IMG/VR virus record: IMGVR_UViG_3300033153_002955
Span: 1-30,489 of that record
Direction: 5' to 3' (one strand)
DNA length: 30,489 nucleotides
DNA from: a virus
Part shown: positions 7,563 to 26,562 of the stretch, in pieces
How the letters are laid out: every line of letters starts with the position of its first letter
Position numbering within the stretch: the first letter of the stretch is position 1
The notes under the pieces: generated by a model
What the model saw: only the letters and a program-made list of their open reading frames with translations
The model's database searches: none
What the model was told of the DNA's origin: nothing
Position numbers and translations under genes: made by a program

Positions 7563-7566
7563 ATTG

Positions 7567-7574
7567 CAAAGATA
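7567..7574 (-). promoter_or_regulatory. Leaderless promoter (TATCTTTG, 4 nt before ATG)
   Basis: Minus strand TATCTTTG, then CAAT, then ATG 7562 of the protease gene. No clear -33 element at the usual distance. Support comes from the identical spacing at three other genes. Confidence 0.5.
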
Positions 7575-7585
7575 TTAAATTCTGA

Positions 7586-7867: not shown

Positions 7868-7877
7868 ATTTAAAATA

Positions 7878-10671: not shown

Positions 10672-10699
10672 TTCTCCTTATTATATATTTACAAAGATA
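10672..10699 (-). promoter_or_regulatory. Promoter and Shine-Dalgarno site for the portal gene
   Basis: Minus strand TATCTTTG (10692-10699) lies in the gap after the terminase gene, followed by an A/T leader of about 20 nt and AAGGAGAAATG. AAGGAG is the clearest Shine-Dalgarno sequence in the window and fixes the start at 10671. Confidence 0.6.
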
Positions 10700-10703
10700 T
10701 TAA

Positions 10704-11867
10704 TTAAACAACAAAGAAATTATTTCGTTTTGAATAGTGAGAATACACTCCATACCTAATTGAATCCATCAAATGATTAAACCGATCAATTGGTTTATTT
10801 ATAATTGTGCCATCCTTTAACTCTGTCCAATAATACGACTGATATTCCTTCATTAGATTTTTGCTTTCTTTTGAAACGTAAACATCAAATTCTTTTAAAA
10901 ACGATATCCCTGCATTAATTGAACCCGAACCTTTAACCGCTCCCTTAATGATTAATCCCAATCTTTTCAACTCTTCAATTGATTTAGGTTCTGCTGAATC
11001 GCCATAAAATAATAAATCATCATATCCTTCAGATTCAAAGTATTTAAAAAGATCGCCATTTGTCATCCCCTTTTTATATAGTAATTCGTGAATGTATATT
11101 TTATCATTTACTTTCTTAATTAAAGTTGCTCCTGCCTCATCATTTGAATAGCCAAAATCCAATCCAATAATCGCTTGGTCGTCCATATCAGGAAAATCAA
11201 CATAAGGGATAAAGTTCCAATTTGTAAAAATCTGTCTTGCTGAAAAAACCGCTTTTTGCCCTTCACCATAAACCCTCCAATAATCGGGATCACGTTCACG
11301 CATTCTTTCAATCTCGAATATCAATTCAGAAGATAAAAATTTGTTATCCTTATAAGTCGTTATCCAAGTATCGCAGTCATCTCTTGGGATTACCTCATCA
11401 TACAACCAATGCACCGGATCTGATGGATTAAAATCAATAATTATAGAATCCGTTGTCCTCATATTGATTTGTCTAAAATCTTCAATCGTTAATTCATTTG
11501 CCTCATTTAAAAAAGCAATGTTCCTTTTTCTTCCACGAATCTTCTGTGGTTCATCAACTGACAAAAACTCCAATAAATGATTTTTGAATCTAAATGTATT
11601 TTCTGCTTTGTTATGGATGCCTTGATAATACATTCCAAGATGTTCCAATATCTGAATGATATCTCTTTGAACTGATCCCTTTAATGCAGGAAGCGTTTTC
11701 CTAATGATGGATATGGTCAATGGTTTTTCTGATGATCTCAAAAGATAACAGATGTATTGACAAATTGCATAGGTCTTGCCCGACCTTGTTCCACCTTGAT
11801 GAACTCTGAACCTTTTTTTGGAATTTAAGAGATGCTCAAATTGAATATTGCAATCAACTGTTATCAT
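10704..11867 (-). CDS. terL: Large terminase subunit (TerL)
   Basis: The 387-residue protein has an N-terminal ATPase with Walker A GGTRSGKT (residues 25-32) and Walker B in RKRNIAFLNEANEL (about 115-128). The RNase H-like nuclease half shows its three acidic elements: IIGLDFGYSNDEA, LLFYGDSAEPKSI and NHLMDSIRYGVYSH. This matches the PBSX/Sf6-type large terminases that pump DNA into the prohead and cut concatemers. The length is complete though compact. The gene overlaps the small subunit by 14 nt. A headful type would agree with the circular permutation suggested by the window ends, but I cannot establish packaging mode from the sequence. Confidence 0.95.
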   Translation of the reverse strand: MITVDCNIQFEHLLNSKKRFRVHQGGTRSGKTYAICQYICYLLRSSEKPLTISIIRKTLPALKGSVQRDIIQILEHLGMYYQGIHNKAENTFRFKNHLLEFLSVDEPQKIRGRKRNIAFLNEANELTIEDFRQINMRTTDSIIIDFNPSDPVHWLYDEVIPRDDCDTWITTYKDNKFLSSELIFEIERMRERDPDYWRVYGEGQKAVFSARQIFTNWNFIPYVDFPDMDDQAIIGLDFGYSNDEAGATLIKKVNDKIYIHELLYKKGMTNGDLFKYFESEGYDDLLFYGDSAEPKSIEELKRLGLIIKGAVKGSGSINAGISFLKEFDVYVSKESKNLMKEYQSYYWTELKDGTIINKPIDRFNHLMDSIRYGVYSHYSKRNNFFVV

Positions 11868-12216
11868 CCTTATTGATTCGCCATTGAACTATTTCGTTTT
11901 CTAATTTACCGGAATGATCAATTTCTTGCCTTTCAATATATCCTCTCTTTTTCCCTTTTGTTTTTAATAGAAATATTGTCGCAGTTGTATTGCCTTCTTG
12001 TATTTGTTTATGCAATTGAGATTCAGCAAAATCTAAAGTAATATTATCAATTTGATCAACTTCACTTTTATATATCGGATCGGTTTTCATCCATTGATAA
12101 TGCGTATCACGATGAATCCCGGCAATCTTTGAAGCAGTTGTTACAACCCCCAATGATTTTTCCAAAGCTTTAATCATCGCTTTTTTCTTTGTCGGATTTT
12201 GTCTTTTATTAGCCAT
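11854..12216 (-). CDS. terS: Small terminase subunit (TerS)
   Basis: The 120-residue protein begins with a basic stretch (MANKRQNPTKKKAMI) and a helix-turn-helix (LGVVTTASKIAGIHRDTHYQ, then WMKTDPIY), followed by an oligomerisation helix (ITLDFAESQLHKQIQEGNTT) and FLLKTKGKKRGYIERQ, a strongly conserved TerS ending. It recognises the packaging site and recruits TerL, with which it overlaps by 14 nt. A -7 box lies 4 nt before its ATG, so the packaging-head transcript may start here as a leaderless mRNA. Confidence 0.9.
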   Translation of the reverse strand: MANKRQNPTKKKAMIKALEKSLGVVTTASKIAGIHRDTHYQWMKTDPIYKSEVDQIDNITLDFAESQLHKQIQEGNTTATIFLLKTKGKKRGYIERQEIDHSGKLENEIVQWRINKDDNS

Positions 12217-12220
12217 ATCG

Positions 12221-12228
12221 CAAAATTA
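12221..12228 (-). promoter_or_regulatory. Leaderless promoter (TAATTTTG, 4 nt before ATG)
   Basis: Minus strand TAATTTTG, CGAT, ATG 12216 of terS, in the 42-nt gap after the methyltransferase gene. A -33 match is weak. The geometry equals that at 4194, 7567 and 26555. Confidence 0.5.
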
Positions 12229-12258
12229 AGCAAATCAATAATAACGGATTTTAAAATT

Positions 12259-13416
12259 TTATTTGCTGATATAGTCTTTTCCGTTTATTTTGACAATCAA
12301 TGATGGATCAAGTTTTTGCATTCTGTCAATGATAACTTGACAATATTTTGGATCAAGTTCCATTCCGTAACAAATGCGATTTAATTGATGCGAAGCGACC
12401 ATTGTTGAACCCGAACCAAAGAATAAATCTAAAACTAAATTGTTTTTTGTTGTAACGTTTTCAATAGCCATTGCCGACAATTTAACGGGTTTTTGAGTTG
12501 GATGTAAATATTTAGTACCTCCATCCTTACCAATATTCCAAACGCTACCAATCCTTTTCCCTTTTATTTCTGCCCCTCTATTATAAACTAATGCAACTTC
12601 AAAATCTGTTAAAAATGTTTTTTTTAAATCTCCAATACCTCCACCGCCTTTATTCCAAATAATTAAATTTGATAAATTACCGATAGATTTGCAAAATTCA
12701 ATCCATTGTTCTAAAACCTTCCAACTTGTCCAAACAAACACAAATCCTTTTGAAAATAATGGTATATTATTTATCCATTCGGTAAGGAATACATTGTCAT
12801 TTTTTAATACATTAAACTTTTCTGTTTTAGTTCTGAAATTAGATTTATAATTTACTCCATATGGAGGATCGGTGAATACCATATCCGCTTTTTTACCATC
12901 CATCAGCTTTGCAACTTGATCGTAATCTGTTGAATCTCCACAAAGCAAACGATGCTCCCCAATCTCGATTAAATCGCCAAGAACAACATCAACTTGCATT
13001 TCATCGGGTTCTTCGTAGTCATCTTCCTCCGCTTCTAAAACTTCTTCTGTTGGAAATTCAGGTATATCCATCCCCCATTCAACCAATTCTTCCTGATCAT
13101 ATTGATTCGCTAAAATATCCCAATCCCATTCACCGAAACCAACATTGTCTTTTACTATAAATTCCTTCTTCTGTTCTTCACTCCATCCAAAAACTTGTTT
13201 GATTGGAACTTCAAAAATGCCTGATGATTTTAACGCTTTCAATCGCATATTACCACCCAAAACCATCATGTTTTCATCAACGATTAATGGTCTTGCTTCT
13301 AACATTTCCGGAAATGATTTAATCGATTTAATTAGTTTTTTAAACTTAGCATCTTTGATAAAACGTGGATTCTCGTTATTGGGTTTTATGGATGATATGT
13401 TAACCTTTTTTTCCAT
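12259..13416 (-). CDS. ParB-like domain fused to beta-class DNA methyltransferase
   Basis: Residues 1 to about 110 form a ParB/Spo0J N-terminal-like domain: ISSIKPNNENPRF, then RPLIVDENMMVLGGNMRLKA (the GGNxRxxA box) and QKKEFIVKDN. After an acidic linker (EEVLEAEEDDYEEPDE) comes a methyltransferase with ADMVFTDPPYGVNY (motif IV, about 180), HPTQKPVKLS and LDLFFGSGSTMVA (motif I, about 335). The order IV before I marks the beta class (N6_N4_Mtase family); DPPY suggests N6-adenine. This fusion is widespread in phages and prophages just before the terminase genes. It may protect phage DNA from restriction or mark packaging substrates. The specificity cannot be read from the sequence. Confidence 0.9.
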   Translation of the reverse strand: MEKKVNISSIKPNNENPRFIKDAKFKKLIKSIKSFPEMLEARPLIVDENMMVLGGNMRLKALKSSGIFEVPIKQVFGWSEEQKKEFIVKDNVGFGEWDWDILANQYDQEELVEWGMDIPEFPTEEVLEAEEDDYEEPDEMQVDVVLGDLIEIGEHRLLCGDSTDYDQVAKLMDGKKADMVFTDPPYGVNYKSNFRTKTEKFNVLKNDNVFLTEWINNIPLFSKGFVFVWTSWKVLEQWIEFCKSIGNLSNLIIWNKGGGGIGDLKKTFLTDFEVALVYNRGAEIKGKRIGSVWNIGKDGGTKYLHPTQKPVKLSAMAIENVTTKNNLVLDLFFGSGSTMVASHQLNRICYGMELDPKYCQVIIDRMQKLDPSLIVKINGKDYISK

Positions 13417-13540
13417 TTTTATTTTTATTTTCTTCTAACTCTGCTTCTCTAATTAATCTCACAATCTGTTGTTCACGAAATGTAAGTTCTGTAAACCTTC
13501 TATTGTATTGCTCTAATGATATAATGCTTAATGGACTCAT
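13400..13540 (-). CDS. 46-residue helical protein
   Basis: ATG at 13540, TAA at 13400-13402, overlapping the methyltransferase start by 17 nt. The sequence MSPLSIISLEQYNRRF then TELTFREQQIVRLIREAELE resembles one short amphipathic helix followed by a basic Lys/Asn tail (KNKNGKKG). It is packed between two genes with no gap, supporting translation. No function is recognised. Confidence 0.45.
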   Translation of the reverse strand: MSPLSIISLEQYNRRFTELTFREQQIVRLIREAELEENKNKNGKKG

Positions 13541-13541
13541 T

Positions 13542-13712
13542 TTAATTTTTTAAATCTGTGTACCAATGTATGTTAATTCCAAATAAACCAAAAAATATTT
13601 GAATTGTATTTCTTAGATCATTTCTTGGTTCTTCGCATTCTTCAATATCTTCGTTTGTATATACAATTCCGATCATAACCCCGTATAACGGGAAAAAATC
13701 AATTTGAATCAT
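13542..13712 (-). CDS. 56-residue hypothetical protein
   Basis: ATG at 13712 overlaps the stop of the upstream gene (ATGA), and TAA is at 13542-13544. The sequence starts MIQIDFFPLYGVMIGIVYTN, continues with an acidic stretch (EDIEECEEPRNDLRN) and ends in a hydrophobic patch (TIQIFFGLFGINIHWYTDLK). It looks like a small conserved phage protein with alternating strands and one helix. Tight coupling on both sides argues that it is real; function unknown. Confidence 0.55.
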   Translation of the reverse strand: MIQIDFFPLYGVMIGIVYTNEDIEECEEPRNDLRNTIQIFFGLFGINIHWYTDLKN

Positions 13713-13951
13713 TTTTTAAATTTTTTGTAAAGATAAATGTAATAATCCCAAATTTTCTGTTGATATACATTTTCTTTATGAACTATGCCTGACTCGAAAC
13801 CAACTCCGCCCTTAACACAAACTAATTTAAAACCACCTTTAGTTTTTTTTGGATAAACTTTAATCTCAGCAGATAAACACCATAACATTGACTTATAATG
13901 TTCTTCATTTGTGTTTACCTCTTTCCATTGATTTGATCTCATTTTTTTCAT
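13709..13951 (-). CDS. 80-residue hypothetical protein after the primase
   Basis: The protein begins MKKMRSNQWKEVNTNEEHYK and contains CLSAEIKVYPKKTKGGFKLV and the Tyr/Lys-rich end (YYIYLYKKFKK). It is basic, probably soluble and mixed alpha/beta. It shares one base with the primase-helicase stop region and 4 nt with the next gene, so it belongs to the replication operon. I recognise no domain. Confidence 0.6.
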   Translation of the reverse strand: MKKMRSNQWKEVNTNEEHYKSMLWCLSAEIKVYPKKTKGGFKLVCVKGGVGFESGIVHKENVYQQKIWDYYIYLYKKFKK

Positions 13952-15627
13952 TAAAAGGGAACGTTATCATTTAATATTTTAACTCGTTTATCCGGAACAA
14001 CATCTAATGATCGATAAACACCACCATTTCTGAAATCGGGTGCAGTATAAAAAACTCCTTGTTTTCCGTTTTCTTTTCTTTTCACTTTCTGAATATGTAT
14101 TGAAACCGCATCTGAATTATATTGTGTTTCTTGTCCTAATTCTCTAAAAACAGTAATACAATTATATGCTTTGTTGAAGAAATCCGCAGAACCCGAAATG
14201 TCATATGGTGTTGGTATTTTATAGCCATTTTCTGTTTGTTCCATCTTTCGGGGATGTGCAACCAAAAATAAATGTGTATTCGTTTGCTGACAAAATTGAG
14301 TTATCTCTGATAACATTCGCCCAATGTATGAATGGTCTTTTTGTTCTGAATGATCCAACATATTCCAAGGATCAATCACACAAATATTAATACCCTTTTG
14401 CAAAACTAAATCTCTGAATCTGTCTAAAATTGATTTCAATGTCAAATTTTCTAAATCAATTTTGACAAAGAAGAAATGTTCTTGAATAAAGTTTTTTGAA
14501 AAATTAAGATCATCGTTATTACATATTTTCTCGTTCAATTTATTTGCAATTCTCTTTATATGACCTTCATAAGGAAATGACTCAGGAGCAAACATTCCAA
14601 TTCTAAAATCATTTTCCAATGCTAAATTACAACATAGCTGATCAACAACATCTGATTTGCCTGAATTTGGTATTCCGGAAATTAATGTCCATTCCGATAA
14701 TGCTAACTTGAAATAATCATCAGATGTACCAAAGCCGATTCCATAGTTCTTAATTCCATTTTGATTGTAATTTAAAACATCATCCCATATGTCATTTAAA
14801 TTTACAATTCCTTCTAATGGAAAATTTTTAGCGTTTTTTAAACAGTTTTTTAACGACTCTTTGCCCTCGTTAACTAAAACATCATTAGCATCTTTATATT
14901 TTCCAAAATCAACGTATTTGCATCTATGCTTACCAAATCTCCTCGCCAATTCATTACGCAATGATAACCCTGCTTCATCTGTATCTGTACAAAGGATTAT
15001 TTCAGTTTTTATATTTTGAAAATACTTCCAACAATTGTCAAGATATTCCAACCTTTGATTCCCTTTTGACGCTCCATTTGGAACTGAACAAACCGAATAT
15101 ATACCGCACTCGTGAACTGATAATGCATCAATTTCACCTTCAACAATGTAGATTGTTGAACTATCTTTTATTTTGTCAAGTCCGTAAAAAATCAACTCAG
15201 CACCGCTTACCATTTTAAAATCTTTTCCGGCAGATCGGTGTTTTATATTGACCAACTGATTATTTCGATAATAATTAAAATTAATCGATAATCTTTTTTC
15301 GTTTGCTGATGGAAAAAATTGAAATGATTCTGTGATTCGCCAATTTTCTAAAGTTGGTTTTGATATTCCACGATTTCCAAAATATTGAATTATTTTGTCA
15401 GATAATGGAACAACGGATTCAATTGGTTTAACAAATTCTTTTTTTGGCTTAAATTTTACATTGCCTGACCATCCGCAGTTATGACAATTATAAACACCTT
15501 TTGATAATGATATTGATAATGGCTTATCATTTTTATTTTTTCGTGTTCCTGAGCATTTCGGACATTTTAATTTTTGCTTGTCAGAATTCCCTGTTGGTAT
15601 TATACCAATATTTATAAACTCTTGCAT
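13951..15627 (-). CDS. Primase-helicase, T7 gp4/Twinkle type
   Basis: The 558-residue protein has a complete three-part layout. A zinc-binding motif comes first (Cys22, Cys25, Cys48, Cys51). Next is a Toprim primase domain with IYIVEGEIDALSVHECG near residue 160 and ILCTDTDEAG near 215. Last is a RecA-like DnaB-family helicase domain with Walker A SGIPNSGKSD near 320, Walker B NICVIDPWNM near 412 and HLFLVAHPRKM near 448. It would prime lagging strands and unwind the fork. Length matches T7 gp4 (566 residues). Its 5' leader contains a structured RNA ending in a terminator-like hairpin, about 25 nt before the start codon, so its expression may depend on read-through or attenuation. Confidence 0.95.
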   Translation of the reverse strand: MQEFINIGIIPTGNSDKQKLKCPKCSGTRKNKNDKPLSISLSKGVYNCHNCGWSGNVKFKPKKEFVKPIESVVPLSDKIIQYFGNRGISKPTLENWRITESFQFFPSANEKRLSINFNYYRNNQLVNIKHRSAGKDFKMVSGAELIFYGLDKIKDSSTIYIVEGEIDALSVHECGIYSVCSVPNGASKGNQRLEYLDNCWKYFQNIKTEIILCTDTDEAGLSLRNELARRFGKHRCKYVDFGKYKDANDVLVNEGKESLKNCLKNAKNFPLEGIVNLNDIWDDVLNYNQNGIKNYGIGFGTSDDYFKLALSEWTLISGIPNSGKSDVVDQLCCNLALENDFRIGMFAPESFPYEGHIKRIANKLNEKICNNDDLNFSKNFIQEHFFFVKIDLENLTLKSILDRFRDLVLQKGINICVIDPWNMLDHSEQKDHSYIGRMLSEITQFCQQTNTHLFLVAHPRKMEQTENGYKIPTPYDISGSADFFNKAYNCITVFRELGQETQYNSDAVSIHIQKVKRKENGKQGVFYTAPDFRNGGVYRSLDVVPDKRVKILNDNVPF

Positions 15628-15650
15628 TTGTTGAATTTAATTGTGTTTTT

Positions 15651-15672
15651 AAAAAAGATAGTCTTTCCTATC
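15651..15672 (-). terminator. Terminator or attenuator before the primase gene
   Basis: Minus strand GATAG, GAAAGA loop, CTATC, six T. The stem is short (5 bp), so termination may be partial. It lies about 25 nt before the primase start. Confidence 0.55.
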
Positions 15673-15794
15673 AGTCAGTCTTATTGCAATTTATTGATTT
15701 TATGAAACCCAAATGTTAGGTAAAGAGCATCAATTTTGACTCACGCATTGCAACGACCTACATTAGCGACAACTAAGGATTTATATTGCTCTTT
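15651..15794 (-). ncRNA. Structured leader or small RNA between promoter and primase gene
   Basis: A -7 box (15796-15803) is followed at once by AAAGAGCA (15787-15794), which pairs perfectly with TGCTCTTT at 15722-15729, closing a domain of about 73 nt. Inside are TTAG/CTAA and a stretch around TTGCAA. TAGGT inside the domain can pair with ACCTA just 3' of the closing stem, a possible pseudoknot. CCTAA-CAT-TTGGG forms a further hairpin, and the RNA ends in GATAG/CTATC plus six T. No open reading frame is seen. It could be a free small RNA of about 140 nt, or a regulatory leader for the primase. I cannot match it to a known RNA family. Confidence 0.5.
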
Positions 15795-15795
15795 T

Positions 15796-15803
15796 CAAAT
15801 TTA
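15796..15803 (-). promoter_or_regulatory. Promoter, -7 box TAAATTTG
   Basis: Minus strand TAAATTTG, a full match to TAnnTTTG, in the gap between the methyltransferase stop and the primase. It lies 2 nt upstream of the closing stem of the structured RNA. The -33 region has only poorly spaced TTG candidates. Confidence 0.55.
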
Positions 15804-15870
15804 CTTTCCAAAATTAAAAAATTTATTTTGATAAAAAAGTATTTTTTTTGTCATTTTATCTACTTTAAAT

Positions 15871-16494
15871 CTAAAACATTCTTATTTGTGATTGATGCTG
15901 TTTTATTCTTTTTATTGCTTGGTCGTAGTATTGCTTATCAAGTTCACAGGCAGTCAAATCAAAACCTAAATTATGACAGGCAATAGCTATTGAGCCACTA
16001 CCTAAATGTGTGTCTAATATTTTATCGCCTTTCTTTGCGTAATTCATCAGCAACCATTCGTATAATGATATCGGTTTTTGTGTAGGATGTATTTTGTTTT
16101 TATTGCAGTATGCTTCTGCTCTTGACATTCTAAATGCTTTTGCCGGAGATTTAAAAGATGTCCAAGCAGTTTCAAATACTGCACCGCTAAACTCTTGCAT
16201 TTTATCCCATATAATTAAACAAGGAGTTGAGTATAAATACTCAATCATATAGTTTCCTCCCCAAATGATTTGGTTATTAGAAACTCTAAATAATTCATTA
16301 AAATATTCTTTATTCGGTATATTTTTATCCCATTTTTTATTATCATATTTCTTCCAATTTTTATTTAAATTTGGATTTTTAACTTGATTCATCCAATCAA
16401 TACCATAGGGAGGATCAACAATAGCAAGATCAAAGTAATTATCTTCGTACCTTGCCATTAAGTCCATATTATCTTCGTTTGTAATATTTATCAT
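15871..16494 (-). CDS. Beta-class DNA methyltransferase
   Basis: The 207-residue protein has LAIVDPPYGIDW with DPPY at residues 27-30, NQIIWGGNYMIEYL, the family motif KIHPTQKPISLYEWLL, and the AdoMet-binding ILDTHLGSGSIAIA near residue 160. Motif IV precedes motif I, the beta class. DPPY is more common in N6-adenine than N4-cytosine enzymes. It is a minimal enzyme without a recognisable target domain. It lies two genes downstream of the MjaI-like endonuclease, so it could be the cognate methylase, but an orphan role is equally possible. It is the last gene before the structured RNA promoter. Confidence 0.9.
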   Translation of the reverse strand: MINITNEDNMDLMARYEDNYFDLAIVDPPYGIDWMNQVKNPNLNKNWKKYDNKKWDKNIPNKEYFNELFRVSNNQIIWGGNYMIEYLYSTPCLIIWDKMQEFSGAVFETAWTSFKSPAKAFRMSRAEAYCNKNKIHPTQKPISLYEWLLMNYAKKGDKILDTHLGSGSIAIACHNLGFDLTACELDKQYYDQAIKRIKQHQSQIRMF

Positions 16495-16505
16495 ATATTT
16501 TCAAT

Positions 16506-16808
16506 TTATTCATTCTTGACAAAAATACCATTGACCATTTCACCTTTTCTTTTTGAAATTATTGCATAGACTGAATTAACGCAATGCTCAATGTTAAAAC
16601 CTTTCATTTTTGCCAATATTGTAAGAACAACAACACAATCTCCTATTGCATCAATAAATTTGGAATAACTGTTTTCTTGCATCGCTTCTGATAATTCTCC
16701 TACTTCTTCCATCAATTTTAAAAATTGCGTTTCTTGACTTGCTTTGTCAAAAATTTGTTTTTCGAATGCCCATTCTCTTATTGGATCAAATTCATCTTTT
16801 AAATTCAT
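16506..16808 (-). CDS. MazG-like nucleotide pyrophosphohydrolase
   Basis: The 100-residue all-alpha protein shows the MazG metal-binding pattern EExxE (Glu34, Glu35, Glu38 in MEEVGELSEAM) and the second half DAIGD (Asp53, Asp57), matching the ExxD element with Asp for Glu. A GEIVKG-like ending (RKGEMVNGIFVKN) also fits. These enzymes hydrolyse nucleoside triphosphates to monophosphates; phage versions may lower ppGpp or noncanonical dNTP levels. It overlaps the MjaI-like gene by 4 nt, so both are expressed together. Confidence 0.85.
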   Translation of the reverse strand: MNLKDEFDPIREWAFEKQIFDKASQETQFLKLMEEVGELSEAMQENSYSKFIDAIGDCVVVLTILAKMKGFNIEHCVNSVYAIISKRKGEMVNGIFVKNE

Positions 16809-17425
16809 AATCTTTTTAATTTTAATTTTAACTCCTTGTAATTTATTATCGTTTCGCCATCATAATATAATATAATGTGATCGCATTTGTTTTTAGACAT
16901 ATATAATTCTCTCTGTTTTTGATGATTTTTCTTTGCGTTAATCTGATATAAAGTATTCATTTTTAAATACGAAATTGGCTTTATCTGTATGCCTAAAACT
17001 ATATTATCATTTTTAAAACATTCGATATCTGTGAAATAATTTTGATCGGTTTCGAAATCAGATTTTTCAAAATTAAATTCCGGATGTTTTGATTTCAGAG
17101 CTTTTATTATTCTAAATTCAATCTGAATACCATTCCAAGTTTGACCGATTAATCTAAATGTCATATAATTTTTGGCATCTTCAAAATCCAATTTGTGAAC
17201 ATCTTGAATGTAATTAATTATATTTTGCATCGCCATTATATCTGATTGCCTGAAATAATACGTTTTCCATTCATCCATTGTGATTGATTTTACTGAATGA
17301 TAAAAGTTATCAAAGATTAAAGAACATTTTCCTACTTTATCCGGTGAGAATAGTTTGTTTAAAAACTTATCACGATTTAATGTTTTATAAATTCTTGAAT
17401 CTAAATCTAACTTAAATATTTCCAT
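16805..17425 (-). CDS. MjaI-like type II restriction endonuclease
   Basis: I take the ATG at 17425 (MEIFKLDLDSRIYK, 206 residues). A TTG at 17446 lies inside the upstream gene and is less likely. Features are LDFEDAKNYMTFRLIGQTWN, QIEFRIIKALKSKHPE with Glu103, FTDIECF with Asp133, and GIQIKPISYLK with Gln147 and Lys149. The D-x(13)-QxK spacing is a PD-(D/E)XK nuclease core. The TWNG and GIQIKPISY stretches resemble, from memory, the MjaI family, whose founding member cuts CTAG. Length agrees with the family. The phage genome appears to contain no CTAG at all, which is independent support. The enzyme may attack host or competing phage DNA. It sits between a PP-loop protein gene and a MazG-like gene, with a methyltransferase one gene further on. 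Confidence 0.65.
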   Translation of the reverse strand: MEIFKLDLDSRIYKTLNRDKFLNKLFSPDKVGKCSLIFDNFYHSVKSITMDEWKTYYFRQSDIMAMQNIINYIQDVHKLDFEDAKNYMTFRLIGQTWNGIQIEFRIIKALKSKHPEFNFEKSDFETDQNYFTDIECFKNDNIVLGIQIKPISYLKMNTLYQINAKKNHQKQRELYMSKNKCDHIILYYDGETIINYKELKLKLKRL

Positions 17426-17433
17426 ATTTTTAA

Positions 17434-18288
17434 TTATAAACCACAATAACCACTATCGCAATCATTAAAATCATCATCAAACAAATCAAACTGTAATTTT
17501 GTTTTTTTTATATCTGCGTAAGTAATTCCGTTTTTAAATGTTCTTGATTTATTACCTTTTTGCTCTTGATTAGCAAACCAATTAAACTTATTAGGATTCT
17601 TTTCAGACATCAACTTTAATAAAATTTCGTTTCTATGAAAACAACCAACGCAATTATTCATATAAGCAAAACGTACATTTTTATTTTTCCAATATTTTTC
17701 AACTGTGTCTTTAAATATATTATCCTCTATTAATGGAAATTTTGGTTTTTGCCATTCAATATTCGCCCATTTATTTTGATTTGTTTTTCCATTTCTCTTG
17801 CCGATAATATCTTTCATTTCAAGATTTCCATTGTCATTAACCTTTGACAACATTGTCTTTGCCCTTTTTTTCTCATTTGCACGATATCCAATCCTTGTTT
17901 CAACAACTTCATTAATATTTTTTTTCCACCATTGAAAAATTGGTTGTAATTTCATTTCAGTTGTACAAAATCTTTGCGTAACATTTGGAAGATACATTTT
18001 TCCATTTCTATTAATTATTTCATCGAATGTCCTTCCACTTACCCAATCTATTTTTTGTCCAATAAATTGTTCTAAATCTAACATAGTGTAAATAATTACA
18101 TCATCCTCTAAAGTCCCTATAAATTCATTACCTATTTTATCGGAAACCATTTGCCTAACCTTTTTATCAGGAAACATACAATTTTTATCATCTGTTCTGA
18201 CTAATGCAAATACATTGTAATCAGCAGGATAATTAACCGCTATATAACTTGATGTTTTACCACCACTTAAACTGTTTACTGTTTTCAT
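17434..18288 (-). CDS. PP-loop ATPase, PAPS reductase / DndC-like
   Basis: The 284-residue protein starts with the PP-loop SLSGGKTSSYIAV (residues 6-18), which binds ATP or an adenylated sulfur donor. Conserved Cys pairs follow: LPNVTQRFCTTEMKLQPI at about 97-114, and MNNCVGCFHRNEI near 220, so an Fe-S cluster or thiol chemistry is possible. The C-terminus also ends in Cys (CDSGYCGL). The set of motifs fits phage PAPS-reductase-family proteins and the related DndC of DNA phosphorothioation. Neither dndD nor dndE is seen nearby, so a full Dnd system is not present. Possible roles are assimilatory sulfate reduction, tRNA or DNA thiolation, or host-sulfur takeover. Confidence 0.75.
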   Translation of the reverse strand: MKTVNSLSGGKTSSYIAVNYPADYNVFALVRTDDKNCMFPDKKVRQMVSDKIGNEFIGTLEDDVIIYTMLDLEQFIGQKIDWVSGRTFDEIINRNGKMYLPNVTQRFCTTEMKLQPIFQWWKKNINEVVETRIGYRANEKKRAKTMLSKVNDNGNLEMKDIIGKRNGKTNQNKWANIEWQKPKFPLIEDNIFKDTVEKYWKNKNVRFAYMNNCVGCFHRNEILLKLMSEKNPNKFNWFANQEQKGNKSRTFKNGITYADIKKTKLQFDLFDDDFNDCDSGYCGL

Positions 18289-18290
18289 AA

Positions 18291-19013
18291 TTAAAATATA
18301 TTTTTGCCATATCTCTCTGCAAAGTAATCGATATATAAAATTCCTTCTTTATTTTTCTTTCTAAGCTTGGATATCGAATAAAAATTATCCTTCCAAAAAT
18401 CATCATCTCTTGCCTTTTTAACGATATAATAGACTTGTCTTGGATCATAACCATCAATTCTTTCTAATTTGTCAATCACCGACAACCAATCTATTTTTTG
18501 TTTTCTGTTTTTTGGTTGGAATCTTTTTGGGAATAGTGATAAAATATGAGGATATGATTCAATAGAATTTTTTGAAAAATCAGATTTAACACTATTACTT
18601 TTATTAATATTACTTTTAATATTATAAGATATATTAGTATTAATATTACTTTGTTGCGGATTATCCGTATGCGGTTTTTCCGTTTGCGGTTTTCCCGTTT
18701 TCGGTTTATCCGTTTTCGGATTATCATTTAAAATATAATTGTATCCTGCAAACTTTCCCTTAACTCTAACTTCTTGCCTGATAAGATAACCGAATGATAT
18801 AAGTTCTTTAATTCTGTTGTTGATTGAATCCCTTCCATCTTTAAAGTGACCAACAATAAATTCAGTTGATATTTTAAATTCAGAATTATGACTGAATAAC
18901 CAACAATACAGCCCGGTAGCACCGGATGATATATTTTTTTGGCGAAAAATATAACTTGGAATTACAGTGAACTGATCGTATTCTTTCGGCTTAATAATTT
19001 TGTTTGTTTCCAT
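18291..19013 (-). CDS. Replication initiator with winged-helix N-terminus
   Basis: The 240-residue protein has an N-terminal winged-helix-like domain (VIPSYIFRQKNISSGATGLY, EFIVGHFKDGRDSINNRIKE, LISFGYLIRQEVRVKGKFAG) typical of phage replication initiators that resemble lambda O and DnaD-type proteins. Residues about 97-121 are a five-residue repeat (DNPKT-DKPKT-GKPQT-EKPHT-DNPQQ) encoded by 15-bp tandem repeats, followed by a Ser/Asn/Ile/Lys linker (NINTNISYNIKSNINKSNSV) encoded by nearly pure A+T DNA. The C-terminal part (ESYPHILSLFPKRFQPKNRK, YDPRQVYYIVKKARDDDFWK) is probably the partner-binding domain that would load the helicase. The repeat and A+T linker look like an origin inside the gene. 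It has a leader with two hairpins. Confidence 0.75.
   Translation of the reverse strand: METNKIIKPKEYDQFTVIPSYIFRQKNISSGATGLYCWLFSHNSEFKISTEFIVGHFKDGRDSINNRIKELISFGYLIRQEVRVKGKFAGYNYILNDNPKTDKPKTGKPQTEKPHTDNPQQSNINTNISYNIKSNINKSNSVKSDFSKNSIESYPHILSLFPKRFQPKNRKQKIDWLSVIDKLERIDGYDPRQVYYIVKKARDDDFWKDNFYSISKLRKKNKEGILYIDYFAERYGKNIF
18581..18725. other. Putative replication origin: 15-bp iterons plus A+T-rich region inside the initiator gene
   Basis: Four exact-length 15-bp units lie at 18661-18675, 18676-18690, 18691-18705 and 18706-18720, consensus TTATCCGTTTTCGGT (top strand), with a degenerate fifth at 18646-18660 and a partial unit at 18721-18725. Next to them, 18601-18650 has only 4 G/C in 50 bases. 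Iterons within the initiator gene followed by an A+T-rich unwinding region is the layout of the lambda origin in gene O. Two units begin TTATCC, the first six bases of a DnaA box. The role as an origin is inferred from layout. Confidence 0.65.
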
Positions 19014-19127
19014 AATTTTAAAAAGAAAATCCGATCCAAAGCCATAGGAGAAGCTTCAAACCGGATTCATCAACAAAAACACAATTGAATAAAACAATGT
19101 AAAGTTGTACTGTCGCTCCTATTCGAC
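19014..19127 (-). promoter_or_regulatory. Leader RNA with two hairpins whose loops are complementary
   Basis: On the minus strand the RNA starts with hairpin GTCG/CGAC (19112-19127), whose loop contains ATAGGAG. A second hairpin closed by AATCCG/CGGATT (19028-19067), with inner stem AAGC/GCTT, has CTCCTAT in its loop (19044-19050). The two loops can form 7 Watson-Crick pairs (with 19116-19122). The second hairpin is followed by TTTTCTTTTT, so it can act as a terminator. Loop pairing could decide between termination and read-through into the initiator gene. Confidence 0.55.
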
Positions 19128-19130
19128 ATT

Positions 19131-19138
19131 CAAATATA
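19131..19138 (-). promoter_or_regulatory. Promoter of the initiator gene (TATATTTG)
   Basis: Minus strand TATATTTG fully matches TAnnTTTG, 6 nt from the end of the upstream gene. The expected start falls at the foot of the first leader hairpin. Leader length to ATG 19013 is about 112 nt. Confidence 0.65.
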
Positions 19139-19143
19139 GAATA

Positions 19144-19383
19144 TTAATCAGAATATTCTTTCAAATCTTGTAACATTTTTTCAAATTTTGCAAAAGTATA
19201 TTTTACCTCAGCAAATGATATATCGTAAGTTCCAAATTTAGAACCTAAAATTTCAATGAATAGATTGAATTCATTGTCGCTAATTGCACCAACAAACACA
19301 TAGTGATCTTTTTCTATAATTTTTGTTGACCTGCTTATTTTTTGTGATGTTTCATTATAGAACATCAATTTAACATCTTTCAT
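19144..19383 (-). CDS. 79-residue hypothetical protein
   Basis: The protein starts MKDVKLMFYNETSQKISRST and continues KIIEKDHYVFVGAISDNEFN, then LFIEILGSKFGTYDISFAEV, ending in a charged helix (FAKFEKMLQDLKEYSD). It looks like a small alpha/beta domain, with no membrane segment or Cys. Its start overlaps the preceding DnaA-domain/nuclease stop by 4 nt, so the two are translated together. No family recognised. Confidence 0.6.
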   Translation of the reverse strand: MKDVKLMFYNETSQKISRSTKIIEKDHYVFVGAISDNEFNLFIEILGSKFGTYDISFAEVKYTFAKFEKMLQDLKEYSD

Positions 19384-20078
19384 TTTAAATAATTATCTAT
19401 TATAGTTTTTACTTCATCGAAACTGTTAGACCAATACGATTCCCATTTCGCATTTTCAAGTACATTTAAGCATCTAAATTGACTTTCCGTAGGCTTATTA
19501 TATCCAACCTTTAATTCAATCGCTAAACCACACTTAAAATCGTTTTCTGTTTTTTTTGGATGAAAAATCATCACATCCGGAATCCCTTTAGTACCCCCAA
19601 GATATTTAAACTTGTATCTTTCAAATGCAGTTCTTTTGCCCTCACTTGGAACGTGGATAGCGAATACATTCGGATATTGCAGTTTAATATAATTCATCAC
19701 CATATGTTGCAAGTGATCTTCCTTTCCTAAATATTTTTCAAACGGATTTCTCAAATTTTCTATATTTTTTAAGCATAATGCTTCCAAAGTTAAATACAAA
19801 TTTTCAAGATATTTATCAAATGGAATCATATCGTTTAACTTTTGAAGATTGACCATTACTGTTGAGTGATCACAATTAACCGATTCGCCAATCATTTTAA
19901 ATGATGCTTTTTTAATATGATCCCTGCATATTTTAAAATAAATCTTCCGGGCATCTACATATAAACGCTTTCTTGTTTTAAATCTGATGTCTATGCTTAG
20001 ATAGTCATTGATTACCTCCATTACTGATTCGCAATCGTGTAATGACATTTTACAAATTTGCTTGTGAGTTAACTCCAT
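19380..20078 (-). CDS. DnaA domain IV-like HTH fused to VRR-NUC nuclease
   Basis: The 232-residue protein has two parts. Residues 29-85 resemble the DNA-binding domain IV of DnaA, with KTRKRLYVDARKIYFKI, then SFKMIGESVNCDHSTVMVNL. The D-H-S-T-V signature (Asp70-Val74) is the diagnostic DnaA-box-reading element. Residues 120-200 are a VRR-NUC (PD-(D/E)XK) nuclease: DHLQHMVMNYIKLQYPNVFA, FKYLGGTKGIPDVMIF with Asp168, LAIELKVGYNKPTESQ with Glu188 and Lys190, and Gln200. VRR-NUC domains occur in Fan1-type and stand-alone phage nucleases cutting structured DNA. The AAA+ part of DnaA is absent. This suggests a nuclease directed to DnaA-box-like sites, perhaps the iterons in the nearby origin or the host origin. 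The targeting is inference. Confidence 0.75.
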   Translation of the reverse strand: MELTHKQICKMSLHDCESVMEVINDYLSIDIRFKTRKRLYVDARKIYFKICRDHIKKASFKMIGESVNCDHSTVMVNLQKLNDMIPFDKYLENLYLTLEALCLKNIENLRNPFEKYLGKEDHLQHMVMNYIKLQYPNVFAIHVPSEGKRTAFERYKFKYLGGTKGIPDVMIFHPKKTENDFKCGLAIELKVGYNKPTESQFRCLNVLENAKWESYWSNSFDEVKTIIDNYLK

Positions 20079-20080
20079 AT

Positions 20081-20845
20081 TTACAATATAATAGAACCAT
20101 CTTCAGCCAATTCATACCCTTGATACAATTCAGCGTTTTTTGTGGTCAAATAAAATTTCCAATCAGACAATGATTTCTTCAATGTTGCCTCTCCAAATGA
20201 AATCATATCATCAGATAATGAATAAACTTGACAACTAAAAGGATAGTTTGTTTCAACTGCTATGAATTTAAAATATCTCGGATCAACATTCAGCATTTTT
20301 GAATAACAGACCGCTTGTAACGGATAATTATATTTATAACAATCTCTCTTAAATGCTTGTGGTGAATTGTCTTGGCAACTCTTTACATCTGAAATAAAAC
20401 CTAACAAAGAATTAAAACAGTCCGGTCTAACCCTCACTTTAACTCCGTATAATTCACCGAAATATGAACTTTCAATTTCGCCTTTGCAATAAAATTGTGC
20501 AAGTTCATTAGTGCTGAAATTTTCTTTGATACCATCTATTATTTCAATCTCTGAATCTTTTAGCAAAATTCTATCTTCTGCTATTTTTAATAATTCTTTT
20601 TTTTGCTCCTTTCCATCTTTTGTCCTGAGATCGATTTTTGGCATTCTGAAAAACTCCTTGTCAAAGTTTTGTGGTTCAAGTAATGTTGTATGTATTGCTG
20701 ATCCTAAATTCATCGCTGATGATGAAAATGGTTTTTGATTTAAATAATGATAAACCGATTTCTTATATATCATTTTAAGACCACTCGCTGAAATATGCGT
20801 TTTGTTTGCGTGATACTTTTCGTTTGTTAATTCTTTTTTTTCCAT
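20081..20845 (-). CDS. RecE-like PD-(D/E)XK exonuclease
   Basis: The 254-residue protein fits the exonuclease VIII (RecE) C-terminal nuclease family. It has HISASGLKMIYKKSVYHYLN near the start, SAMNLGSAIHTTLLEPQNFD with His52, KVRVRPDCF (Arg-Pro-Asp142), ISDVKSCQD with Asp153 and Lys155, and YNYPLQAVCYSKM with Gln177 and Tyr181. Such enzymes degrade one strand of duplex ends, giving single strands for annealing. It lies next to an SSB-like gene and an annealing-protein gene, completing a recombination module. Length matches the isolated nuclease domain. Confidence 0.85.
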   Translation of the reverse strand: MEKKELTNEKYHANKTHISASGLKMIYKKSVYHYLNQKPFSSSAMNLGSAIHTTLLEPQNFDKEFFRMPKIDLRTKDGKEQKKELLKIAEDRILLKDSEIEIIDGIKENFSTNELAQFYCKGEIESSYFGELYGVKVRVRPDCFNSLLGFISDVKSCQDNSPQAFKRDCYKYNYPLQAVCYSKMLNVDPRYFKFIAVETNYPFSCQVYSLSDDMISFGEATLKKSLSDWKFYLTTKNAELYQGYELAEDGSIIL

Positions 20846-20893
20846 TTGTTTTGTTTTAAATGGGTGATCCGTAGACCACCCGATTGATTAATA

Positions 20894-21187
20894 TTAAAAA
20901 GGATAATCCTCTGAAACTGATTTTAAATTAGCATTATCTGAATCTGATGATTCGGTTTTTTCTTTTTCCGGCTTCCAAGTGTTAACCAAAACTGAAACAT
21001 CCTTGCCATAGTTATCAGGTTCTTGCTTATCAGATACATTTAACTTGATATACTTCTTTCCGTTGTATTCAAAGATATGTTCTGATGGAAGATCACTTAG
21101 GTTAATGGTTACCGCTCTGAATGTTCCATATTGTCCGGTAACTTTCTTACCACCTCCTGCGTAAATTGTTTTTTTTGGTTCTGACAT
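20894..21187 (-). CDS. SSB-like small protein with acidic C-terminal tip
   Basis: The 97-residue protein has a strand-rich core (TGQYGTFRAVTINLSDLPSE, HIFEYNGKKYIKLNVSDKQE, YGKDVSVLVNTWKPEK) compatible with an OB-like fold, then a Ser/Asp/Glu-rich tail ending SEDYPF. The final acidic-aromatic-Pro-Phe tip imitates the bacterial SSB C-terminus (DDIPF), which binds primase, nucleases and RecO. It lies between the annealing protein and the RecE-like exonuclease, as single-strand-binding proteins do in such modules. The fold itself is not proved by motif, so SSB is likely but not certain. Confidence 0.6.
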   Translation of the reverse strand: MSEPKKTIYAGGGKKVTGQYGTFRAVTINLSDLPSEHIFEYNGKKYIKLNVSDKQEPDNYGKDVSVLVNTWKPEKEKTESSDSDNANLKSVSEDYPF

Positions 21188-21197
21188 TTTATTTGAT

Positions 21198-21689
21198 TTA
21201 AAAATTAAATTTTTCTTTGATTGTTGCTCGATATTCTTTTTTCATTCGAAAATTCTTGACAACTGATTCCGCTTGTTTTTTTGTTCCTTGTAATGTTGAT
21301 CGCAATTGAGATTCTGTCAACCAAGAGCGATCATCTTTTGTTTTTTCTTGGTTGTGTATTGCGTTTTGCATCTCTTGTGCTGAAGCAATAGATGTATCTA
21401 TTCCAATTCCTAAATAACCCAATGCTCTTCCTAATGCTGATGTAAAACCATTTTCAACGAATGATGTTTTGTTGATGTAACTCGAATCCCTGTATTCTTG
21501 TGCGTGTGCAGAAGAAATAACATTGCCTTTCTCATTTGATATCTCAACATAAAATACACCTTCGTTTTCATTCATTAGATGAATTGTTTCCTTAATCGAC
21601 CAACCATCGTATTTTTGGTTTTCTCTAAAATGTTTTAAACGTTCATTGACTGTTATATATTCCTTCCCTTTGATGTTTATTGATTTCAT
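21198..21689 (-). CDS. Single-strand annealing protein, Erf/Rad52-like superfamily
   Basis: The 163-residue protein includes YDGWSIKETIHLMNENEGVF, a strand pair (YVEISNEKGNVISSAHAQEY), and the strong motif FVENGFTSALGRALGYLGIG at about residues 79-98. The xENGxTSAxGRALxxLGIGI pattern is typical of phage Erf/Sak-type annealing proteins. The C-terminal tail (RSWLTESQLRSTLQGTKKQA) is helical. Partner of the RecE-like exonuclease encoded downstream; together they would repair or recombine phage DNA ends. The exact subfamily is not certain. Confidence 0.75.
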   Translation of the reverse strand: MKSINIKGKEYITVNERLKHFRENQKYDGWSIKETIHLMNENEGVFYVEISNEKGNVISSAHAQEYRDSSYINKTSFVENGFTSALGRALGYLGIGIDTSIASAQEMQNAIHNQEKTKDDRSWLTESQLRSTLQGTKKQAESVVKNFRMKKEYRATIKEKFNF

Positions 21690-21877
21690 ATGCCTAAGTT
21701 TAACAATTTAAAATTCAATTTTTTTAATGCGATCACTTCACCGACTGTTAATGTATCCGGACTTTTTAACTTTGATTTTAAAGTTGGCATCGTCATTCCT
21801 AATAATTCGCAAACTTCATAACGCTTTAATTGTAAGCGTTTCATATCGTTTATGAATTCCATTTCAAAACTGTTCAT
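21686..21877 (-). CDS. Small helix-turn-helix protein
   Basis: The 63-residue protein is a single XRE-type or Cro-like HTH: FINDMKRLQLKRYEVCELLG then MTMPTLKSKLKSPDTLTVGE and VIALKKLNFKLL. The recognition helix would be around TMPTLKSKLK. It is too small for a repressor with a dimerisation domain, so a Cro-like or early regulator is likely. It begins 3 nt before the end of the next upstream gene's stop region and overlaps the annealing gene by 4 nt, at the start of the early operon. Confidence 0.7.
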   Translation of the reverse strand: MNSFEMEFINDMKRLQLKRYEVCELLGMTMPTLKSKLKSPDTLTVGEVIALKKLNFKLLNLGI

Positions 21878-21879
21878 AT

Positions 21880-22158
21880 CTATTTATTTTGGATTTGTTT
21901 TTCTATTTTATTTAATATCGTTTTTGCGTTTTTGCAAGTATAATAGCTTCTATCCTTTCTAAGCATTTTAAACCCCTTTTTTTGAATCAAATCATTGTAA
22001 TGAATGACTAAGTTGTCATTGCTTAAATTAAGTTCTAAATATCGCTTTTCTGAGAAGATGCCTCTTATTCTTATTTTACCATCTACAAAGTGATTGATTT
22101 GAAAATAAGATTTTTCGATTTCTGTGTTTCTCGTGTAAGTAAAGTTGATAAATTCCAT
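21880..22158 (-). CDS. 92-residue hypothetical early protein
   Basis: Start chosen at ATG 22158 (MEFINFTYTRNTEIEKSYFQ). A TTG at 22191 in frame overlaps the -7 box and is rejected. The protein has strand-rich segments (DGKIRIRGIFSEKRYLELNL, SNDNLVIHYNDLIQKKGFKM) and a basic C-terminal helix (CKNAKTILNKIEKQIQNK). No family recognised. It is first in the early operon from the promoter at 22189-22196. Confidence 0.6.
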   Translation of the reverse strand: MEFINFTYTRNTEIEKSYFQINHFVDGKIRIRGIFSEKRYLELNLSNDNLVIHYNDLIQKKGFKMLRKDRSYYTCKNAKTILNKIEKQIQNK

Positions 22159-22188
22159 AATCTTTTTGATTTTGTTTCTGCAAAAATA

Positions 22189-22196
22189 CAAATATA
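22189..22196 (-). promoter_or_regulatory. Early operon promoter (TATATTTG)
   Basis: Minus strand TATATTTG, 30 nt before ATG 22158, directly downstream of a terminator. It probably drives the block 22158 to about 19144 (HTH, annealing protein, SSB-like, exonuclease, DnaA-nuclease). Confidence 0.7.
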
Positions 22197-22231
22197 TTTT
22201 AAGATTTAAACTATATTTTTTAAAATAATGT

Positions 22232-22259
22232 AAAAAAAAAGGGATCGTAATGATCCCCT
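22232..22259 (-). terminator. Intrinsic terminator (GGGATC/GATCCC stem)
   Basis: Minus strand GGGATC (pairs GATCCC), ATTAC loop, nine T. Almost the same hairpin as at 4947 and 5363. Confidence 0.9.
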
Positions 22260-22280
22260 TTATTTTAATTAAAATAGTGT

Positions 22281-22442
22281 TTAGATAACTTTAATTGATT
22301 TTAAATCTGCTTTTGTCGACTTTGCCATTGCGTTAGATGATGCTAAAGCTTTTTCTATCGCTTCATTTTCGTTATTAGCTTTGACATTTACTGTCCAAAT
22401 TCCTGCTTCATAACCATAAAAAGATATTTCAAAATTTTTCAT
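22281..22442 (-). CDS. 53-residue hypothetical protein
   Basis: ATG at 22442, TAA at 22281-22283. It starts MKNFEISFYGYEAGIWTVNV, continues KANNENEAIEKALASSNAMA and ends KSTKADLKSIKVI. The beta-strand/helix pattern with a 'A-x-N-E-N-E-A-I-E-K-A' helix resembles small alpha/beta phage proteins. It is 11 nt after the 71-residue gene and directly ahead of a terminator, so the two form a cassette. Confidence 0.55.
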   Translation of the reverse strand: MKNFEISFYGYEAGIWTVNVKANNENEAIEKALASSNAMAKSTKADLKSIKVI

Positions 22443-22453
22443 AATATTTGTTT

Positions 22454-22669
22454 TTATATAAATTCATTTATTAATTCTTTAGCTTCTTTAACAGATATGT
22501 TTGATGTCAAAAAATGCTTGCCATTATTTAAAAAAAATACTCTATCATATTTATCAGTAACGTAAATAGTAAATGTACCAACAAAATAAGTATTGTTTAT
22601 TTTGCTAAAATCTAAATCTAAATCTATTAATGCTTTAGCGATGTTTTTTAAGTTTTTTAAATTATTCAT
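22454..22669 (-). CDS. 71-residue hypothetical protein
   Basis: ATG at 22669. It begins with a helix (MNNLKNLKNIAKALIDLDLD), followed by paired strands (NTYFVGTFTIYVTDKYDRVF) and FLNNGKHFLTSNISVKEAKE. It has its own promoter at 22692-22721 and lies in an accessory cassette between the tail operon terminator and the early operon. No family recognised. Confidence 0.6.
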   Translation of the reverse strand: MNNLKNLKNIAKALIDLDLDFSKINNTYFVGTFTIYVTDKYDRVFFLNNGKHFLTSNISVKEAKELINEFI

Positions 22670-22691
22670 AATTTCTGTGTTTTTGTTGATA

Positions 22692-22721
22692 CAAATCTAA
22701 AAAAATATTTTTAATTACAAA
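22692..22721 (-). promoter_or_regulatory. Promoter with -33 TTTG and -7 TAGATTTG
   Basis: Minus strand TTTG (22718-22721), 18 nt, TAGATTTG (22692-22699), then TATCAACAAAAACA. The best-spaced Bacteroidota-type promoter in the window. It shares the box and downstream bases with the promoters at 5301 and 5626. Confidence 0.75.
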
Positions 22722-22742
22722 CTGTATTTTAAGGAAAAAAAT

Positions 22743-22785
22743 AAAAAAATAAAAAAACCCGGATCAAGCAGATGCCATCACCGGG
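22743..22785 (-). terminator. Intrinsic terminator of the tail operon
   Basis: Minus strand CCCGG, loop with inner GATGGCATC, CCGGG, then T7-A-T7. It lies 25 nt after the last tail gene. Confidence 0.8.
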
Positions 22786-22810
22786 AATACAAACAAAAGA
22801 AAAAAGAATA

Positions 22811-24793
22811 TTATACTTCAAATTTCTGCTTTAATGTCGCAGAAAGATCATCATCTTGATTTGGAACGTGCATTATAACTCTCGATTCATTTGCCTTTAT
22901 ATCGAATCTCATTGCATCTATGTAGCAACTCACCGGTTCTTGCAAAACGGATGTTCCGAAATTAATCCAAATTTTATTGTGCGGCATTAATGGAATGGCA
23001 GTTCTATTGCTCAAAGTTCCTTCATATCTCGGTAGATAATTTCTGTGATCATTTAAAATGTATCTTGGTATTATCTCAGAAATACGTTTCGTTGTATTGT
23101 TAAACTCATCAACTGCCCTTCTGACTTCTAAAATTGAATCGCCTTTGTCGTAATTAACGTGGATAAAATCTGATAATAATGAATCTTCCGATCTGTATTC
23201 ATAACTATAATTTCCGGAGTCCCTTGTAAGTTCAAATGTATTTTTCGAAACATCTGCTTTTATCGTTGCGTTTTGACCAACAATATTTTCATTAAAAATA
23301 TCTAAGAAAACACCGCAAACATTTACATAATCATTATTTGTGCCGATCAACTCAATCTTGCAATTCGTGTAAGTTGATGCAGGAAAAATTGGTGAAATGT
23401 CAGGAATTTCAATGTCGTGTTCAACCCATATAAATTGATTTGTGCGTACTAAATTGTTTACAACAGATGTACTTGTAAATGTATTATTTGCCTCATCAAA
23501 ATAAACTGTTTGCGATCCATTAAAACCACTCAATCTGTATGTTATCGCTCCCGATGGATTTGACAACGATAAATAGGTTAATTTAAACTTGTAATAACCA
23601 TCATTAGATTGTTTTTTTAAGGTAAATAAATCTGATGTAACTGTTTCGTTGCCAACCCATTTTAAAGATGTATTTGTCTTAAATGGTTCAGTCGTAACAA
23701 ATGATACATTTGAACCGCCTAACTCCCATCCTGCATAAACTCCCGATCTTGGTTCTGACCATTCTAAAAAAGGATTTTGATTTATAAACTCAAATCTGTT
23801 TTCCAACGAATTTACAAATGTTGCTCTATTTAATGGTCTTAACATCTGTTTTGTTAAATCACCATTTATTGGTTTTAAATCCTCAGGTAATTCAAACAAT
23901 ACATTTGTTGTTGTTGTACTTGTTGATCCGCTAAATGGAACTATTTTATATTTAATATTTTCTGAACCATTCGTTTGCAGGAATGATGTTTCAGTATCTC
24001 GAATTGATGTACCTGAATAAGTACCATCCATTAAATCATCTTTAATCGACTGCTCTGAATATGCTGACTTGTTTACTATATACCATCTTCCAAAGGATTG
24101 AAATATTCTTGAATGCGTTAAATTTAGTATTTGTTTTAAAAGTTCTTCGGCATTTAAGAATCTTGATCCATCCTTCATAAATCCATATGGAACATTATTT
24201 GAATCATCAGTATTATCCCAAATTGAAAAATAAATATTATCAGACTCTTCGCCATTTACAAATAATTCGTTTGAATAATAAAACGACAATTCAAGACCTA
24301 AGTTGTTTAAAATCTCTTGAATGTATTCATTTGGATAGTTAACATCTTCAACAACATCACTACCGGACTGTTTGTTAAAGAATGGTATGCTATAATTTGA
24401 TAATGTGCCTAATCCATCGATTGCCAATAATTCAATCAAATAAGGATCACTCTGTACGGATTCTATATATGTATCATTTACAAGCCATCCTTTCCAAATT
24501 GCAGTATAAAAACCACTTATTTGAGCATACACTATAACTTTAAATTCTCGCTCATCATATTCATAAAAATTTAAATATGAAACTGAATCCGTTGTGTAAA
24601 GTTGTATGGTGCAAGTTGATCCTATTATTGGCGAATAAATATCATCTTCTGATGTCCATTCAATAACCACCGGACTTTCAGCACCAATCATATCATCAAC
24701 TGATCCTGAATAATTTTTTTGATGGATTTCAAGCTTGTATGAACCGCCTTTATCATCGCCAAAATTTAAACGATATCTTGCCGAATAACTCAT
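22811..24793 (-). CDS. Tail tip / distal tail protein
   Basis: The 660-residue protein follows the tape-measure gene (sharing one base) and ends the tail operon. The N-terminal part (YKLEIHQKNYSGSVDDMIGA, VIEWTSEDDIYSPIIGSTCT, IWKGWLVNDTYIESVQSDPY) has the tail hub character. The middle includes EELLKQILNLTHSRIFQSFG and GRWYIVNKSAYSEQ, typical of baseplate proteins in Bacteroidota phages. The C-terminal half is beta-rich with a lectin-like or CBM-like appearance (PFLEWSEPRSGVYAGWELGG). It probably closes the tail tube and contributes to host binding. Exact family unassigned. Confidence 0.7.
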   Translation of the reverse strand: MSYSARYRLNFGDDKGGSYKLEIHQKNYSGSVDDMIGAESPVVIEWTSEDDIYSPIIGSTCTIQLYTTDSVSYLNFYEYDEREFKVIVYAQISGFYTAIWKGWLVNDTYIESVQSDPYLIELLAIDGLGTLSNYSIPFFNKQSGSDVVEDVNYPNEYIQEILNNLGLELSFYYSNELFVNGEESDNIYFSIWDNTDDSNNVPYGFMKDGSRFLNAEELLKQILNLTHSRIFQSFGRWYIVNKSAYSEQSIKDDLMDGTYSGTSIRDTETSFLQTNGSENIKYKIVPFSGSTSTTTTNVLFELPEDLKPINGDLTKQMLRPLNRATFVNSLENRFEFINQNPFLEWSEPRSGVYAGWELGGSNVSFVTTEPFKTNTSLKWVGNETVTSDLFTLKKQSNDGYYKFKLTYLSLSNPSGAITYRLSGFNGSQTVYFDEANNTFTSTSVVNNLVRTNQFIWVEHDIEIPDISPIFPASTYTNCKIELIGTNNDYVNVCGVFLDIFNENIVGQNATIKADVSKNTFELTRDSGNYSYEYRSEDSLLSDFIHVNYDKGDSILEVRRAVDEFNNTTKRISEIIPRYILNDHRNYLPRYEGTLSNRTAIPLMPHNKIWINFGTSVLQEPVSCYIDAMRFDIKANESRVIMHVPNQDDDLSATLKQKFEV

Positions 24794-26550: not shown

Positions 26551-26554
26551 ATAG

Positions 26555-26562
26555 CAAAAATA
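26555..26562 (-). promoter_or_regulatory. Leaderless promoter (TATTTTTG, 4 nt before ATG)
   Basis: Minus strand TTG, 17 nt, TATTTTTG, CTAT, ATG 26550. With a -33 TTG at accepted spacing this is the best supported of the four leaderless promoters. Confidence 0.6.

Follow-up and report, generated by a model that had tools for sequence, protein, structure and literature searches.

Restriction endonucleases of the MjaI family cut CTAG. Element-encoded nucleases that act on another genome while their own is spared are also known, among them endonucleases II and IV of phage T4 and the PLE nuclease NixI. It is well known, too, that phage genomes avoid the sites of host restriction enzymes (PMC6286503). 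The window analysed here, a stretch of 30,489 nucleotides from a marine phage, carries a lone nuclease gene of the MjaI family. We propose, with a probability of roughly 0.78, that this gene's product is an active nuclease of the restriction type, that it works without a dedicated cognate methyltransferase, and that the phage tolerates it by way of purged sites and uses it against host or rival DNA.

The protein had been described as MjaI-like in the first-pass annotation, and a profile search confirmed this by placing the ORF in PF09568 (RE_MjaI; Pfam) above the curated cut-off: residues 24-160 scored 33.2 bits, the cut-off being 22.7. D127, D133 and Q147-I-K149-P-x-S-Y were kept in 20 phage homologues, with D127, D133 and Q147-I-K149 invariant, and the putative active-site residues were also conserved in both of the plasmid copies described below. 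An AlphaFold model of the nuclease had a pLDDT of 94.4. Its credible PDB matches were Hjc-type PD-(D/E)XK nucleases, with high probability and weak E-values (none below 0.001); together with the invariant residues, these matches meet the expectation of a PD-(D/E)XK-type catalytic core. Pairs of relatives gave dN/dS values of 0.04-0.19 for the gene, and the protein is therefore maintained under purifying selection. Among its neighbours, the MazG-like gene is not needed for the proposed system. The PAPS-reductase-like gene upstream of the nuclease matches the SspD model of phosphorothioation systems.

Features of the window, with the evidence for each
Feature	Position	Strand	Evidence
Absence of CTAG (0) and CCAG/CTGG (0)	1..30489	.	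Genome-wide counts
MjaI-family nuclease gene (206 aa; start codon ATG at 17425, last base of the stop codon at 16805)	16805..17425	-	PF09568 E 5.6e-8; 70 phage carriers; dN/dS; AlphaFold
Putative PD-(D/E)XK-like active site, D127, D133, Q147-I-K149	16979..17047	-	Codons counted from ATG 17425
Y160 to H168, helix after the active site; proposed CCAG/CTGG specificity switch	16922..16948	-	Residue-purge correlation
MazG-like nucleotide pyrophosphohydrolase, overlapping the nuclease gene end	16506..16808	-	PF03819 E 5.3e-8
Beta-class N6/N4 DNA methyltransferase near the nuclease, specificity unknown	15871..16494	-	PF01555 E 1.4e-15
Second N6/N4 methyltransferase	12259..13416		
PAPS-reductase-like gene	17434..18288	-	SspD model E 5.5e-13

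Exact counts bore out the first-pass annotation's reading that CTAG is missing from the window: none occurred, against 23.9 expected from a second-order Markov model based on trinucleotides and 27.0 +/- 4.9 in 200 synonymous-codon shuffles of 41 genes (minimum 12, z -5.5). The gap lies beyond the range of the shuffles and so cannot be put down to stop codons or codon usage. Base composition, from which the annotation had roughly estimated 60-90 CTAG sites, gave a computed expectation of 83.9, and the more than 30 AGCT it had noted proved to be 37. GGCC, which had seemed absent with few sites expected, was indeed absent (0 vs 10.6). The annotation had suspected that avoidance might be broader; it had overlooked stronger or comparable gaps: observed/expected counts were 1/93 for CATG (z -11.4), 0/93 for the non-palindromic CCAG/CTGG (z -11.5), 0/17 for CGCG and 2/19 for GCGC. 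With several other words also gone or nearly gone, the window by itself is not diagnostic for a link between the gene and CTAG. The MjaI-like gene leaves the gaps in CATG, CGCG, GCGC and GGCC unexplained; host restriction may be their cause. The two ends of the window (1-369 and 30104-30489) code for a nearly identical protein stretch, and the record is therefore probably circular or has a terminal repeat.

The nearest clade consisted of 80 terminase relatives of the window. These relatives avoid words likewise, but the sets of words change between lineages. The gene was found in only four records of the clade (the window, G003, G081 and G082). The G003 copy, which the PF09568 profile alone missed, has an in-frame stop, and G003 holds one CTAG. 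CTAG was also zero in many relatives without a detected copy, for example G007 (0/42), G063 (0/57), G065 (0/64) and G070 (0/60). Relatives lacking both the gene and CTAG were an outcome that the first-pass annotation had itself named as refuting its proposal. The nearest clade cannot decide the question and, taken alone, would count against that proposal. The rival reading that survives best is that host restriction drives all of the tetramer losses, with the MjaI-like gene incidental or settling only in CTAG-free genomes without maintaining them. It draws on these gene-free relatives, on the avoidance of several words in window and clade, in combinations that differ from lineage to lineage, and on phage site avoidance under host restriction, which is established (PMC6286503).

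The link between the phage's own nuclease and the missing CTAG was supported by wider comparisons. Single-protein searches for the nuclease gene gave no match in phages, viral contigs or genome contigs, and a two-sequence profile gave none in genome contigs. A five-sequence profile was needed to detect the gene in the viral set, the protein sequence being the sole search input. Profile searching recovered 69 IMG/VR loci with MjaI-family genes, 66 of which had zero CTAG; the 70 distinct carrier contigs, window included, held 4 CTAG sites against 2007 expected. A control set was fetched through the neighbouring primase-like gene rather than through the nuclease. CTAG was 0/783 in its 30 carriers and 929/1379 in the 50 loci without a detected nuclease copy, several of the zero-CTAG loci among the latter stopping before the gene slot. 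Three loci (L243, L245 and L247) cover the slot and lack both the gene and CTAG, a pattern that fits recent gene loss without proving it. A further locus without the gene, L242, in which CTAG is back, was dropped as a clean test: all of its purges are relaxed, and a thymidylate-synthase-family gene is present (L242:2773-3525). Most purged words are back in this phage, and base modification is possible there. Some MjaI carriers (L166, L171, L174, L181-L184, L186 and others) also lack the non-palindromic CTCC/GGAG, with 0/48 in L174.

Two Bacillota megaplasmids, pSC2 and a Brevibacillus plasmid, each carry a lone MjaI-family gene of about 26% identity. In the 250 kb sampled from each plasmid, CTAG was the most depleted of all tetramers (0/341 and 0/380) and CCAG was at its normal level. 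In the syntenic sister plasmid, P. thiaminolyticus SY20, the neighbouring genes are the same and CTAG stands at 148/182; no MjaI gene was present in its sampled region, and a plasmid-wide search gave no match. An Aneurinibacillus relative had 51/80. Neither carrier megaplasmid showed an N6/N4 methylase above cut-off, nor a typical methylase motif within 50 kb around the MjaI gene. Other words are missing from the MjaI-free megaplasmids (L363/L365, L364): CGCG in SY20 (0/55), and GATC (0/187) and CCGG (0/49) in the Aneurinibacillus plasmid.

Relatives have other small ORFs in the slot, which lies between the primase and the DnaD-like gene. One of these, cl83 (L007:3530-3919 and 83 other loci), is a nuclease-like uncharacterised family with the pattern SDID-x13-ExK and matched no Pfam family at cut-off. 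GATC was absent in all six original carriers of cl83. A new search yielded 80 loci, two of them previously encountered, with GATC at 24/1879 (zero in 74/80) and CTAG retained at 1636/2372. Across 273 loci, CTAG was purged in 70/70 MjaI carriers and GATC in 80/84 cl83 carriers, with both genes in none, which is a double dissociation. The same pairing of gene and missing word in unrelated phages and in giant plasmids, together with that of cl83 and GATC, suggests site deletion instead of methylation. In one locus cl83 fills the slot held by the MjaI-like gene in close relatives (L244:4822-5214), and both GATC and CTAG are zero. Carriers of cl56, another nuclease-like family (L150:1367-1780 and 51 other loci), are mostly without CATG (27/1272 pooled). 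A link between cl56 and CATG was rejected, as independent pairs on the trees gave it no support, and one between cl46 and CGTC was likewise unsupported on the trees.

Independent pairs on the primase tree agreed 7.5 to 0 for cl83 and GATC (p 0.008). For the MjaI gene and CTAG, agreement was 4.5 to 0 on the terminase tree (p 0.06) and 1.8 to 0 on the primase tree, and for the MjaI gene and CCAG it was 5.7 to 0 on the terminase tree (p 0.03). No link between the MjaI gene and CATG was seen on the trees. The weakest part of the case is the small number of MjaI contrasts, which are fewer still on the primase tree.

CCAG/CTGG was purged in 66/70 MjaI carriers, and two residues of the enzyme tracked this second loss. 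Y160 and H168 occur in every one of the 62 full-length copies whose phages are purged of CCAG; the four phages that retain CCAG have H160 and D168, and both CCAG-retaining plasmids have E160 and N168. Since the missing word can be predicted from a residue of the protein, the enzyme itself probably sets which words go missing. Only some two evolutionary events underlie this link between residues and specificity. A CYRG specificity was rejected because CCGG is in excess in the window (58/40); the likely target set is thus CTAG together with CCAG/CTGG, which corresponds to CYAG on either strand. The phage-type enzyme probably targets CCAG/CTGG besides CTAG. Cleavage of CCAG/CTGG is an inference, as is that of CTAG, whose only basis is that carriers lack the word throughout their genomes. 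Against host restriction as the sole driver stand these residues, which track the absence of CCAG, and the pairing of each gene family with its own missing word in unrelated replicons. We consider that reading unlikely, though it cannot be set aside.

An ordinary restriction-modification pair, in which either methyltransferase of the window protects CTAG and the site is missing for other reasons, is much less plausible. The window does encode two N6/N4 methyltransferases, the nearer lying less than 400 bases from the nuclease. However, a protected genome has no need of site loss, and relatives of the nearer enzyme were found in some carriers and missing from others, a pairing too inconsistent for a cognate partner; in both plasmid carriers none of that type was above cut-off. 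A type II system would hold its site in protected form in its own DNA and would pair the nuclease with a cognate methyltransferase. Neither holds here: CTAG is absent from the window and almost absent from the 70 carriers, and no methyltransferase is a consistent neighbour across them. This result is a lack of consistent pairing and not proof of absence, the window having two methyltransferases of unknown specificity. Many prokaryotic genomes are CTAG-poor, but a loss through composition, codon usage or general rarity of CTAG without any enzyme is scarcely credible, since total absence exceeds the trinucleotide and synonymous-shuffle expectations and the neighbour-gene set and the megaplasmids already contradict it.

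The first-pass annotation had claimed that the phage carries a nuclease for CTAG and has removed its own sites. The wider carriers, the megaplasmids and the pairing of cl83 with GATC support this claim, with cleavage still an inference; it needs amendment in that CCAG/CTGG is probably also a target and the other missing words are unexplained. In the reading we prefer, the enzyme would be produced during infection from the replication module and would cut CTAG, and probably CCAG/CTGG, with host or competing phage DNA as its target. No dedicated cognate methyltransferase would be needed: all target sites would have been removed from the phage genome, fresh ones would be selected against, and the phage would be exempt from its own enzyme because its genome has no sites. 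The exact specificity, the direction of cause and the biological role are inferred. It cannot be told whether the purge followed gain of the gene or whether the gene was gained only by genomes already cleared by host restriction.

These results suggest that some viruses guard against their own restriction-type enzymes by site deletion rather than methylation. We also favour, with clearly less assurance than the reading of this locus, a general class of modification-free restriction, in which interchangeable orphan nucleases reside in phages and megaplasmids and each has its four-base target erased from the carrier; the MjaI type (CTAG and CCAG/CTGG) and cl83 (GATC) would be its first two members. 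If true, site deletion would join methylation and DNA hypermodification as a means by which an element coexists with a restriction-type enzyme that it encodes. The missing words of a carrier would then reveal the specificity of its enzyme, and site avoidance in phages would no longer be evidence for host restriction alone. In a partial literature search, with most subscription journals missing, no paper was found to link self-avoidance in a phage to an orphan enzyme that the phage itself encodes.

Endonucleases II and IV of T4 and PLE NixI are loose parallels: T4 depends on modified cytosine, and NixI has a longer motif and belongs to a contest between satellite and phage. With the MjaI-family type II endonucleases (PF09568) the window's enzyme shares a sequence family, a conserved motif and an inferred CTAG target. 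It differs from them in that the phage has no consistent cognate methyltransferase and has emptied its own genome of the site, and phage-type copies probably target CCAG/CTGG as well. With restriction-site avoidance in phages (e.g. PMC6286503) it shares the complete loss of short sites and nuclease-driven selection. In that case selection comes from a host enzyme, whereas here, by inference, it comes from the phage's own.
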